Shown piece by piece: positions 8,671-42,993 of a stretch of DNA of 64,000 nucleotides (position 1 is the first letter of the stretch; each line of letters begins with the position of its first letter). Origin of the DNA: Mycoplasmatota bacterium (GTDB lineage: Bacteria; Bacillota_I; Bacilli_A; Haloplasmatales; Haloplasmataceae); contig CP074573.1 in NCBI GenBank assembly GCA_018394295.1, positions 2,239,156 to 2,303,155 of the forward strand, given 5' to 3'. The notes under the pieces were generated by a model. The model was given only the letters and a program-made list of their open reading frames with translations. It did not search any database and had not been told where the DNA came from. Position numbers and translations under genes: made by a program.

Positions 8671-10863
8671 CTATTCTGGTTTAATCATTGTTAATGCTAA
8701 ACGTCTACGAAGTAAATCAATATTTTCTACATACACAGTAACAATATCCCCAACATTCACTACATCCATAGGATGTTTAACAAATGCATTACTCATTTTT
8801 GATATATGGACTAATCCACCTTCTTTAACTCCGCAATCAACAAACGCACCAAAATCAACTACGTTTCGAACAGTTCCTTGTAACTCCATACCGATTTGTA
8901 AATCCTCTAATTTTTTAATTCCTTTTCTTAATAAAGGTTTAGCCAATTCATCACGAGGATCACGATTAGGTGCAATAAAGGCATCTAATATATCATTTAA
9001 AGTATGCTCACCTAAATTAGTAATATGCATGATTTGAGCCTTATCCGCTTGATTAATCGCATCAACTAACTTGTCAGTTCCTAAATCAGTTAACTCACAC
9101 CCTAAATGTTTTAAAATTAATAACGCATTATCATAATTTTCTGGATGAATTCCAGTTTTATCTAGAGGTTGATTTCCATCAACAATTCTTAAAAACCCAA
9201 TCGCTTGTTCATAAGATTTAGCACCAAAACGAGGCACTTTAATTAATTCTTTACGGTTTGTAAACTTACCACTATCATCGCGATACTTTACAATATTTTT
9301 CGCTACAGTTGCATTACAACCTGAAACATGTTTTAACAATGCTTCTGATGCAGTATTTACATTAACACCAACATGGTTAACCGTTGTTTCAACCACAAAG
9401 TTTAATGAATCTTTTAATTTACTTTGTGTAACATCATGTTGATATTGTCCTACACCAATCGATTTAGTATCAATTTTAACAAGTTCTGATAACGGATCTT
9501 GCAATCTTCTAGCAATTGATATAGCTGAGCGTTCTTCTACATTTAAATCTGGAAACTCTTTTCTAGCTAACTCTGAAGCAGAATAAACTGATGCTCCCGC
9601 TTCACTAACTATAATATATGAAACATCACGCTTAAGGTTACTTAAAACATTCACAATAAACTCCTCAGTTTCTCGTGAAGCTGTCCCATTCCCAATAGCA
9701 ACGATTTCAATCTGATAATCATTTATACATTTACTAATTAAATCCTGCGCTTCTTTAACACGATTATCATGAATTTTTTCACCTTTATATTTTTCATGTG
9801 GATAAATGACCCCTTTAGTTAACATCTTTCCTGTTTCATCCACAACTGCAAATTTACAACCCGTACGATACGCTGGGTCAACACCTAATACCATCTTCCC
9901 TTTCATCGGTGGTTGTAACAATAGATTCCTTAAATTTTCTGAAAATATATTAATCGCTTGTCCTTCTGCTTTTTCTTTTAATTCAGATCTGATTTCACGT
10001 TCAATCGAAGGTTTAATTAGTCGTTTATAACCATCATCACAAGCTGCCAATACATATGATGTAGTTACAGATTGATCATTAACAATCATCCGGTTGTAGA
10101 TAAAATTCATTATTTTATCTTTTGGTTCATCAATTGAGACACGAATGATTTTTTCATTATCACCACGATTAACTGCTAATATCCTATGTGAAACAATTTT
10201 ATTAATTGGTTCATGATAATCATAATACATTTCATAAACTTTTCTTTCATCTAATGATTCATCTTTAACTTTGGTTGTTAATTGTCCTTCTTTAACAAAG
10301 ACACCTTTAGTAAACTTTCTAATATCAGCATTGTCAGAAACCATTTCAGCGATAATATCTTGTGCACCTTGTAATGCTTGTGAAGTTTCATTTACTCCTT
10401 TTTCTTCATCTAAATATTTACTCGCTTCTTCTAATACATCAGCATCTTTTGGAAAGCTCAATAAAAACTGTGCTAATGGTTCTAACCCTTTCGCAATAGC
10501 ATCTGTTGCTCTAGTCTTTTTCTTTTCTTTATATGGTCTATATAAATCTTCAATATCTGATAATTTATCACATACTAAAATTTTATTTTTAAGTTCATCT
10601 GTTAATTTCCCTTTTTCAGAAATTAAACGAATGACATCATCTTTTCTTTTTAATAAATTTTGTTGATATTCATATTCTTTACTAATTTCACGAATTTGTT
10701 CTTCATTTAAAGCCCCTGTTACTTCTTTACGATATCGAGCAATAAAAGGCACCGTATTATTATCAGACAATAATTCTAATACCTTTGTTACTTGATCTAT
10801 TTTAATCTTTAAATCATTTGCGATTCTTATGATTAATTCATGAATAAAATTTAACTCTGTCAT
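8671..10863 (-). CDS. tex: Tex-family RNA-binding transcription accessory protein
   Basis: A 730-residue Tex/YdcI family protein, close to the usual 720. The N-terminal helical region carries the family motif VPFIARYRKEVTG (38-50). A YqgF/RNase H-like fold starts at about 324 (LGVDPAYRTGCK), a helix-hairpin-helix region lies at about 490-560, and a C-terminal S1 RNA-binding domain at about 645-718 contains GTVRNVVDFGAFVD. Tex proteins bind nucleic acid and are linked to transcription and RNA turnover; the exact substrate is not settled. A strong AGGAGG site precedes the ATG. The gene stands alone, ending about 40 bp before the tRNA promoter; I see no strong terminator in the gap. Confidence 0.95.
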   Translation of the reverse strand: MTELNFIHELIIRIANDLKIKIDQVTKVLELLSDNNTVPFIARYRKEVTGALNEEQIREISKEYEYQQNLLKRKDDVIRLISEKGKLTDELKNKILVCDKLSDIEDLYRPYKEKKKTRATDAIAKGLEPLAQFLLSFPKDADVLEEASKYLDEEKGVNETSQALQGAQDIIAEMVSDNADIRKFTKGVFVKEGQLTTKVKDESLDERKVYEMYYDYHEPINKIVSHRILAVNRGDNEKIIRVSIDEPKDKIMNFIYNRMIVNDQSVTTSYVLAACDDGYKRLIKPSIEREIRSELKEKAEGQAINIFSENLRNLLLQPPMKGKMVLGVDPAYRTGCKFAVVDETGKMLTKGVIYPHEKYKGEKIHDNRVKEAQDLISKCINDYQIEIVAIGNGTASRETEEFIVNVLSNLKRDVSYIIVSEAGASVYSASELARKEFPDLNVEERSAISIARRLQDPLSELVKIDTKSIGVGQYQHDVTQSKLKDSLNFVVETTVNHVGVNVNTASEALLKHVSGCNATVAKNIVKYRDDSGKFTNRKELIKVPRFGAKSYEQAIGFLRIVDGNQPLDKTGIHPENYDNALLILKHLGCELTDLGTDKLVDAINQADKAQIMHITNLGEHTLNDILDAFIAPNRDPRDELAKPLLRKGIKKLEDLQIGMELQGTVRNVVDFGAFVDCGVKEGGLVHISKMSNAFVKHPMDVVNVGDIVTVYVENIDLLRRRLALTMIKPE

Positions 10864-10922
10864 GATGACCTCCTAAATTAATATATGTAAATATTTTAAC
10901 ATATTTTTACAAATTTTAAAAT

Positions 10923-10944
10923 AAAAAAAAGTTGGCATCCAACT
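10923..10944 (-). terminator. Terminator of the candidate small RNA
   Basis: Minus strand: AGTTGG, loop ATG, CCAACT, then a run of eight T. It lies about 170 bp past the aminotransferase, behind a separate promoter. Confidence 0.8.
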
Positions 10945-11110
10945 GATTGATATCCAACTAAGAGTTACATTATAAAATTTTACTTATCTTAAAACCCAAT
11001 TTAATGGGGGGTCGTAGTCTCCCACGACCCATATTAGGGGTTATTATGAAAAGGGTATATGGGGGTGCAAAATAATATTTTTGCTGTAATACTACTTCTC
11101 GTAATATTAC
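10923..11110 (-). ncRNA. Candidate C-rich small RNA (about 190 nt)
   Basis: A gene-free unit with its own promoter and terminator on the minus strand. The promoter is TTAACA (11140-11145), 17 bp, TATAAT (11117-11122), so transcription would begin near 11110. The terminator is the stem AGTTGG/CCAACT (10930-10944) followed by eight U. Between them lie hairpins at 11086-11110, 11067-11084 (GCAAAA/TTTTGC) and 11009-11030 (GGGTCGT/ACGACCC). An apparently unpaired C-rich stretch at 11031-11066 carries CACCCCC, ACCCTTTT and AACCCCTAAT. Such C-rich loops are how several Bacillota regulatory RNAs pair with Shine-Dalgarno sites. No protein frame of note is present on either strand. I recognise no known RNA family; 6S and tmRNA features are not evident. 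Confidence 0.62.
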
Positions 11111-11116
11111 AAAGTA

Positions 11117-11145
11117 ATTATAGCATATAATTTATCTTTTGTTAA
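11117..11145 (-). promoter_or_regulatory. Promoter of the candidate small RNA
   Basis: Minus strand: -35 TTAACA (5/6 match), 17-bp spacer, perfect -10 TATAAT. It points away from the aminotransferase gene into a gene-free stretch that ends in a terminator. Confidence 0.75.
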
Positions 11146-11189: not shown

Positions 11190-12335
11190 TTAAACTTTCT
11201 TGTTCGATTCAACAAACTCAGTTAGGCAGTTAATAAATCTTATAATATCTTTTATATCCTTACAACAAGAAACTCGAATATAATTTCCATAAGAATCTCC
11301 AAATAATATCCCTGGGACTAAAGCCACATGATAATTTTTAATAAAATATTGACAAAATTCCACTCCCGTCACCTGATAAGGACTAACATCAATAAAAACA
11401 TAATAACCACATGTGGCTTCAACATACTTTATCTTCAAAAATTTTAAAGAATCAAGTAATGTATTTAAATTATTTAAATAATATTTTCTAACAAACTGTA
11501 CAAAACATTCTTCTTCTAATGCCCCAAGCGCTGCTTTTTGCATGATAGTTGAAATACAACTTACAGATAAATAATTGATTTTTCTTAGTTCACGATTCAT
11601 TAATTCATCACATACTACATATCCAATACGATATCCTGTCATCATATGCGATTTAGATAATCCATTAATAAAGAAAAATCTTTTTTTCAAATCATCGTTA
11701 TTTATAAGTTCTGAAAAGGAAACAAAATCTTTAGTTGTATATTGTTTATAAATTTCATCAACAATAATATAGTAACTCTTAGATTTAAATAATGTTAAAA
11801 GCGAATCTTTTTCTGCTTTTGTATACGTCACACCCGTTGGATTATTAGGTTCATTAATAATGATTGCTTTTGTTTTTTCAGTAATCACTTCTTCTAATAC
11901 TTCAGGATTAACTTTAAATTGGTACTTACCACTATCAATAATAATTGCTTTCCCACCAAGTAAATCAATTAATTTAAGATAAGCTGGATAATAAGGGGCA
12001 ATTATAATAATTTCATCCTCACTTGATGTAATGATTGATAATAATACACTAAACAATGCCTGTGTACAACCATTAGTAATAATAATTTCTTTATCTGCCT
12101 GATACGTTGGATAATACTTTTCAATTAGGGTTTTTCGTAGTTTTTCATCACCTTCAATAGGACCATATTTAGTATCATTTGTTAATAAAGCTTCATATGC
12201 TTTTAACTTAGCATTAAAAGGACTATCAAAATGTCCTTCACCCATCGTTAAATCAATCCCTTTGGGGTCATCTTTAATTAATCGACTATAATAACGAACA
12301 GGATTCAATTTTATTTTCTTTAATCTTTTATTCAT
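11190..12335 (-). CDS. PLP-dependent aminotransferase, class I/II (fold type I)
   Basis: A 381-residue aspartate-aminotransferase-like enzyme. Diagnostic motifs are NEPNNPTG (161-168), VDEIY with the PLP-contacting Asp (192-196) and GLSKSH with the PLP lysine at K228; an Arg in TGYRIGY follows. The family exchanges amino groups between amino acids and 2-oxo acids, but the substrate cannot be read from sequence; aspartate, aromatic or branched-chain amino acids are all possible. The ATG is preceded by GTGGTGAT. The gene is monocistronic with no pathway partner beside it, so context does not help. Confidence 0.85.
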   Translation of the reverse strand: MNKRLKKIKLNPVRYYSRLIKDDPKGIDLTMGEGHFDSPFNAKLKAYEALLTNDTKYGPIEGDEKLRKTLIEKYYPTYQADKEIIITNGCTQALFSVLLSIITSSEDEIIIIAPYYPAYLKLIDLLGGKAIIIDSGKYQFKVNPEVLEEVITEKTKAIIINEPNNPTGVTYTKAEKDSLLTLFKSKSYYIIVDEIYKQYTTKDFVSFSELINNDDLKKRFFFINGLSKSHMMTGYRIGYVVCDELMNRELRKINYLSVSCISTIMQKAALGALEEECFVQFVRKYYLNNLNTLLDSLKFLKIKYVEATCGYYVFIDVSPYQVTGVEFCQYFIKNYHVALVPGILFGDSYGNYIRVSCCKDIKDIIRFINCLTEFVESNKKV

Positions 12336-41781: not shown

Positions 41782-42279
41782 ATGGGATTCAAAAAAATAT
41801 TTATTGGTACAATATTAATTTTACTTGATTTTAGAATTCAAGGTTTAAATATTATACCAGATATTATCGGGTACATTCTTATCTTTATAGGACTATCAGA
41901 AATTATCCATTTAAATTCTAAATTCGCAGTTGCAAGAATAATGTCAATTATATTAATTCTTTTTTCAATACCTGATATTTATTCTATAAATACAGAATCT
42001 CCGTCAGGTTTATTTTATTTTATTAACATTATTACTTCAATTATCTATTTAATTTATTCATATTCTTTATACATAGGTATTAAAGAAAACGCAGAAGGTA
42101 TTAATAATGAAGATTTAGCCAATAAAGCGCAATTATCTTGTATCCTAGCAGTTGTATCATGTTTAAGTGGGATAATTGTTTTAATTAATCCATTCTTTAT
42201 GATACCGCTACTCATATTAGTGATTGTGACTCTTGTCATACAACTACTCACCTTATCTATGGCAAAAGATTTAGAGTAA
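41782..42279 (+). CDS. Hypothetical membrane protein, paralogue A
   Basis: A 165-residue protein with about five hydrophobic segments and the motif NIIPDIIGYILIFIGLSEIIHL in its first third (given only as a position range, 26-47). No family recognised with confidence. It is about 60% identical by eye to the next plus-strand gene (42496-42993), with the same length, RBS (AGAGGTGTTAT) and start MGFKKIFIGTILIL. The two arose by local duplication. Confidence 0.85.
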   Translation: MGFKKIFIGTILILLDFRIQGLNIIPDIIGYILIFIGLSEIIHLNSKFAVARIMSIILILFSIPDIYSINTESPSGLFYFINIITSIIYLIYSYSLYIGIKENAEGINNEDLANKAQLSCILAVVSCLSGIIVLINPFFMIPLLILVIVTLVIQLLTLSMAKDLE

Positions 42280-42495: not shown

Positions 42496-42993
42496 ATGGG
42501 GTTTAAAAAAATATTTATTGGTACAATATTAATTTTACAAGATTTTAAAATTCTAGGTTTAAATATTCTACCAGATTTTATCGGTTACATTATTATATTT
42601 ATAGGACTGTCTGAAATTATCCATTTAAGTTCAAAATTCAAAATTGCTAAAATAATGTCGTTTATTTTAATTTTTCTCTCAATACCAGACATATATTTTA
42701 TACCAATACCCTTTATTCCATATTATTTTTTTAAACATACTATTATTTACACGGTTATTTACATAATTTTTTCCTATTTTTTATTTATAGGAATTAAAGA
42801 AACGGCTACATCTATCCATAATAGTAATTTAGCAAAAATGTCTCTGTTTTCTTGGTTACTAGCGGTTGTATCGGGTATAGGCAGTGTAATTATTATAATC
42901 AATCCATTCTTTATGATTCTCATACACACATTCATGATAGTTACATTAGTCATACAACTCTTCACCTTATCAATGGCAAAATATATAAAATAA
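42496..42993 (+). CDS. Hypothetical membrane protein, paralogue B
   Basis: A 165-residue membrane protein and sister of 41782-42279. I chose the ATG at 42496, giving the same start and length as the paralogue, over an upstream in-frame codon. It keeps the NILPDFIGYIIIFIGLSE region and the C-terminal INPFFM and LFTLSMAK segments. A -10 TATAAT lies at about 42462. Function unknown. Confidence 0.85.
   Translation: MGFKKIFIGTILILQDFKILGLNILPDFIGYIIIFIGLSEIIHLSSKFKIAKIMSFILIFLSIPDIYFIPIPFIPYYFFKHTIIYTVIYIIFSYFLFIGIKETATSIHNSNLAKMSLFSWLLAVVSGIGSVIIIINPFFMILIHTFMIVTLVIQLFTLSMAKYIK

Follow-up and report, generated by a model that had tools for sequence, protein, structure and literature searches.

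Architecture of the intergenic locus

In the window (the whole stretch of 64,000 nucleotides that was analysed), the interval between a class I/II aminotransferase gene and tex contains a putative small RNA gene (hereafter sRNA) with a promoter-like site, several predicted hairpins and a terminator (Table 1). The promoter-like site has the highest score of 17 such sites within 2 kb, a number of sites that is itself at chance level; both its hexamers (-35 and -10) are invariant in the seven orthologs, and the spacer between them is only 61% identical. The terminator is one of two terminator-like sites detected, with 0.4 expected, and a hairpin followed by a T run closes all eight homologs (the seven orthologs, including the present one, and one paralog), the divergence of the terminator sequence notwithstanding. 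The predicted ends of the transcript were placed from the -10 box (start) and from the T run (end). Folding of the 190-nt sRNA gave -48.7 kcal/mol (z = -4.66), and none of 200 shuffled sequences reached an energy as low. When the orthologs were compared, no conserved reading frame with a ribosome-binding site was found on the RNA strand. The locus has the features predicted for a free-standing intergenic bacterial small RNA gene: its own promoter, its own terminator, a conserved RNA structure and no conserved open reading frame.

Table 1. Coordinates (positions in the window) of the predicted features of the sRNA locus and of its neighbours
Feature	Positions	Strand	Evidence and remarks
Class I/II aminotransferase gene	11190-12335	-	Neighbour on one side
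sRNA promoter (-35 TTAACA, 17-nt spacer, -10 TATAAT, TG before the -10)	11117-11145	-	Promoter scan; hexamers invariant in orthologs
Small RNA, about 187 nt	10924-11111	-	Promoter, terminator, fold; orthologs at 7 loci, the present one among them, and 1 paralog
H1, 5' hairpin of variable sequence, pairing kept	11085-11111	-	6 of 10 pairs changed on both sides
H2, hairpin GCAAAA-loop-UUUUGC	11067-11084	-	100% identity, invariant in 7 orthologs
Open C-rich stretch ACCCCCAUAUACCCUUUUCAUAAUAACCCCUAAU, with anti-start-codon CAU and anti-Shine-Dalgarno CCCC at native spacing	11032-11066	-	34 of 35 identical; register test
H3, G+C-rich hairpin GGGUCGUGG-loop-CUACGACCC	11007-11031	-	7 of 9 pairs changed on both sides
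H4, short hairpin CCCC-AUUAAAUU-GGG	10995-11008	-	Predicted for the majority of orthologs; paralog copy degenerate
Intrinsic terminator, core hairpin AGTTGGATGCCAACT-TTTTTTTATT, then T run	10930-10944	-	Terminator scan
tex promoter-like site (TTTAAA-16-TAAAAT with TG)	10893-10920	-	Beyond the sRNA terminator
tex	8671-10863	-	Neighbour on the other side

The original prediction, made from the sequence of this segment, had described a TTAACA-17-TATAAT promoter, an RNA of about 190 nt that carries no reading frame, and a canonical terminator. All of these were recovered, on the minus strand, which the prediction had left unstated. It had also described an open C-rich stretch and three hairpins: the C-rich pieces indeed lie together in one stretch (11066-11032), but the number of hairpins has to be corrected, as four precede the terminator (H1, H2, H3 and the short CCCCAUUAAAUUGGG). 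Elsewhere in the window, two adjacent and nearly identical proteins of 165 residues are encoded at 41782-42279 and 42496-42993; the protein encoded at 41782-42279 has no Pfam match.

Conserved structure and distribution of the sRNA

The eight homologs were aligned to a covariance model. Changes on both sides of a pair were observed for 14 of the 29 pairs, compared to 3.5 in shuffles (0 of 500 shuffles were as good), a count that leans toward structure as the alignment was fitted to the model. Standard pairs account for 98.7% of the 231 pair cells, and shifting the pair partners by 1-3 bases destroys the pairing. Despite the model-fitted alignment, the changes in the arms of H3 show the structure plainly: they read GGGUCGUGG/CUACGACCC in the window, GGACCGUG/CACGGUCC in one relative (G006) and UAGGGUGG/CCACCCUA in the paralog. 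Among the pair cells, 13 are G-U and one is A-C, which identifies the minus strand as the folded one. The predicted transcripts, of 138-187 nt, comprise H1, H2, the C-rich stretch, H3 and the terminator in all eight homologs. Conservation and covariation are, to us, the decisive evidence that the sRNA gene is more than a chance arrangement. Judged from its sequence, the locus is a real small RNA gene, presumably transcribed, and it founds a new family within a known kind of RNA. That the family was undescribed had been proposed before, and the Rfam check bears this out: throughout the window, no family reached the cut-off except rRNA and tRNA.

When the sRNA was compared with 60 relatives by blastn, six further genomes of its family matched strongly, with alignments confined to about the first 150 bases (83-93% identity). 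The covariance model located the sRNA in seven of eight Haloplasmataceae genomes, representing six genera (E ~1e-24 to 1e-29), in most of which it is present as a single copy. Neither the sRNA nor tex was detected in the eighth genome, an assembly of 310 contigs; the absence of the sRNA there says little because the assembly is fragmented and tex is missing too. The covariance model was also run on 392 genomes sampled from the phylum; with strict filters, under which weak matches can be missed, it gave no match at E<=0.001 outside Haloplasmataceae. When 84,980 species were scanned for the exact core, the matches were to Haloplasma contractile, Inordinaticella fortuita and Haloplasmataceae metagenome-assembled genomes, together with isolated ones without flanking structure. 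The latter, in Yersinia, one Oscillospiraceae bacterium and two viral contigs, occur in about the number expected by chance and were discarded, as were two 29-base matches in phage records, also judged to be chance. A search of plasmids gave no match to the sRNA.

Additional copies were noted in three relatives. The second copy of G001 (E = 2e-18 with the covariance model), the paralog included above, adjoins a serine-recombinase-like gene (L014 1677-3008, contig C61), and this neighbour suggests that the paralog moved with a mobile element. G006 has a weak second copy (contig C3, 319561-319682; L027 1501-1622; 27 bits, E = 0.014) that carries AUAACCCCUAAUUUGG and a hairpin resembling H3 and is flanked by genes that we take to resemble those for a sugar phosphorylase and a phosphoglucomutase. 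In G004, a copy of 22 of 23 bases of the open-stretch core is present at positions 4320-4374 of contig C93 (L028 1501-1555), where the scan recognised neither promoter nor terminator; it may be the remnant of a paralog, or else act on the sRNA as an antisense partner (sponge).

The open C-rich stretch and its proposed role

Sequence constraint is distributed unevenly along the RNA. Among the seven orthologs, identity is 100% in H2 and 99% in the open stretch (34 of 35 columns invariant), 70% in H1 and 78% in H3; the corresponding values are 28% for the linker and 19% for the terminator region. The C-rich stretch is thus among the most conserved parts of the RNA, the outcome for which the original prediction had proposed to look in relatives. 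In H1 and H3 the letters change and the pairing stays, whereas in the open stretch the letters stay, a signature of sequence recognition by the open stretch. By fold prediction, the mean probability of being unpaired in this stretch is 0.92-0.97 in six of the eight homologs and 0.63 in the window's genome; the CAU is partly paired in the predicted fold of the window's genome (0.50 unpaired) and of G005 (0.07).

The reverse complement of the open-stretch core, AUUAGGGGUUAUUAUGAAAAGGGU, reads as a Shine-Dalgarno sequence followed, after five bases, by a start codon and then an A-rich second codon. How well the core fits real start regions was measured on 586 ATG starts, all of genes that encode 100 aa or more; they lie in the window or in segments sampled at even intervals across roughly the first two thirds of its genome. 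With the CAU placed on the AUG, the mean number of pairs was 12.5 of 24, compared to at most 10.6 in the 36 other registers, for starts selected in part on their Shine-Dalgarno score, a selection from which any C run in the right place benefits. When the AUG was left out, the mean was 9.54, still the highest of the 37 registers; of 500 sequences in which the flanking letters were shuffled, 5 reached this value. The CAU register itself was picked after the sequence had been seen. These data support an anti-start design, without naming targets.

Individual targets were searched by complementarity. In the window's genome, a near-full complement of a 20-mer, with up to 3 mismatches, was found only at the sRNA gene itself, and an 18-mer from the other half of the open stretch likewise returned the sRNA gene alone. 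A shorter seed with AUG gave near-full anti-core sites at real gene starts, none of them before the same gene across genera. The search with TGGGGGT and AUG placed TGGGGGTG, the complement of CACCCCCA, before spoIIAB (identified by TIGR01925, E = 6e-52) in four genera. There, the start region (L191, L192, L193 and L194) reads TGGGGGTGGC(C/T)TAAATG or a variant two bases longer, of which eight bases are complementary to CACCCCCA of the sRNA; the site directly precedes the start, and in three genera out of four its TAA abuts the ATG. However, the site probably codes for the end of the upstream gene, and its conservation needs no sRNA because coding constraint explains it as well, so that spoIIAB is a weak lead as a target. 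Anti-sigma F is present in the Haloplasmataceae lineage, which NCBI places in the Mollicutes.

The explanation that we favour, and consider probable, is that the locus specifies a trans-acting anti-start small RNA that represses the translation of a set of mRNAs. In this model, the RNA would be the product of a free-standing gene of Haloplasmataceae, begun at its own promoter and ended at its own terminator; H1 to H3 would form a scaffold presenting the unpaired invariant stretch, whose CAU and CCCC would match the AUG and the Shine-Dalgarno sequence of an mRNA at their natural spacing. Pairing at the start region would block ribosome loading, and the sRNA would probably switch genes off by covering their start signals. 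We infer all four of its transcription, its action in trans, the repression and the identity of its targets. A more ambitious version, in which the RNA complements the average gene start and acts as a global anti-start-codon RNA that brakes many genes rather than a few targets, possibly touching sporulation through the spoIIAB start, strikes us as a long shot.

Alternatively, the sRNA might bind a protein, as a titrating RNA or a scaffold, or its C-rich stretch might pair with G-rich sites elsewhere than at start codons, such as at 5' ends, as in the RoxS/yflS pair. The nearly invariant block formed by H2 and the open stretch, 53 nt, is longer than is usual for short antisense seeds, and for 763 sampled start regions the best duplex energies were no lower than those of composition-matched shuffled cores, giving no enriched set of start-site targets; moreover, the C-rich region of RoxS is known to protect a 5' end (PMC5419742). 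The spacing of CAU and CCCC, like that of AUG and Shine-Dalgarno, and the position of this register as the best of 37 argue against it, and we consider this explanation unlikely. With respect to the anti-start reading, the pairing of the C-rich stretch with Shine-Dalgarno sites put forward in the original prediction is supported by the in-register signal, but pairing to the pool of start sites is overall no better than that of shuffles, and no individual target is established.

A second alternative makes the sRNA the 5' part of the tex mRNA, a cis-acting leader whose terminator would be a signal-sensing attenuator. Indeed, tex lies on the same strand, 66 bases beyond the terminator in the window's genome, and follows the sRNA on the same strand in G001, G002, G003, G005 and G006 as well (six genomes with the window's). 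However, the linkage is not constant: in G004, an intact sRNA follows the aminotransferase gene, with an amidohydrolase-like gene downstream in place of tex, and the G001 paralog lies without tex between its recombinase-like neighbour and a gene that we take to be a DUF1538-like membrane gene. In addition, (i) tex has its own promoter-like motif past the sRNA terminator, the core of which, ATGTTAAAATA, recurs before tex in four genomes (ATGTTAGAATA in a fifth), (ii) G006 has a second terminator-like hairpin, GCAAGGAG...CTCCTTGC with a T run, between the sRNA terminator and tex (L007), and (iii) the linker and terminator sequences are unconserved, and no conserved alternative (anti-terminator) pairing was seen. 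We rejected the leader, which we regard as improbable, on the replacement of tex in G004, the location of the paralog elsewhere and the separate promoter-like motif of tex; the same three observations support the independence of the sRNA from tex. Least credible of all, and judged a by-product, is a plus-strand micro-gene (AGGGG-TTATT-ATG AAA AGG GTA TAT GGG GGT GCA AAA TAA; window 11032-11066) for the nine-residue peptide MKRVYGGAK, whose start, stop and ribosome-binding site are invariant in the seven orthologs, but whose frame is invariant at synonymous positions too and is shifted, hence lost, in the paralog, and which lies opposite the strand to which the G-U excess, the promoter and the terminator all assign the folded RNA.

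Taken together, sequence comparison supports the predicted sRNA gene along with the strand and structure assigned to it, the invariance of the open stretch and the separation from tex. The original prediction proves right on observation and largely right on interpretation.

Comparison with known small RNAs

The closest likeness is to the streptococcal csRNAs, which are expressed from CiaR promoters and have, between their stem-loops, an unpaired region with anti-Shine-Dalgarno and anti-AUG sequences (PMC3091779), the region through which they repress comC by pairing (PMC4507080). The sRNA shares with the csRNA family (RF02379) an unpaired stretch between hairpins that combines an anti-Shine-Dalgarno sequence and an anti-AUG (CAU) at native spacing, and the csRNA model aligned to its core as UUUUCAUAAUAA-C-CCUAAU. 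In contrast, the score is 25.2 bits in the window and at most 26.1 in the orthologs, for a gathering threshold of 57, with none of the eight genomes above it, and scores as high occur in these genomes at chance sites, namely antisense of gene starts and terminators. The best matches to the CiaR box NTTAAG-N5-TTTAAG upstream of the -10 reach 7-9 of 12 letters, at scattered positions, in the eight homologs. The Haloplasmataceae sRNA also has extra hairpins and belongs to another taxon. Membership in the csRNA family was rejected on the sub-threshold score, the equal scores at chance antisense-of-start sites and the lack of a CiaR box in the homologs. To us, the likeness points to convergence towards a sequence complementary to a generic start region; should the anti-start reading hold, the sRNA would work like a csRNA, yet is no csRNA.

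RoxS/RsaE of Bacillus and Staphylococcus also has C-rich regions that pair with G-rich sites, often Shine-Dalgarno sequences (PMC5419742). A search of a 341-base stretch with its Rfam model gave no match up to E = 10, and FsrA gave no Rfam match either. To our knowledge, no anti-AUG and anti-Shine-Dalgarno unit at fixed spacing has been described for RoxS. FsrA of Bacillus has C-rich unpaired segments, as does the Haloplasmataceae sRNA, from which it differs in structure. The analogy to RoxS and FsrA is looser than that to the streptococcal csRNAs, whose layout of anti-Shine-Dalgarno and anti-AUG the sRNA shares.

Haloplasmataceae is a lineage between the walled Bacilli and the wall-less Mollicutes, and a literature search of partial coverage returned no described small or regulatory RNA for Haloplasma or Haloplasmataceae. 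The sRNA is well defined and lends itself readily to testing; should the anti-start reading be true, the csRNA layout would exist outside the streptococci, under a different promoter and on a different scaffold.
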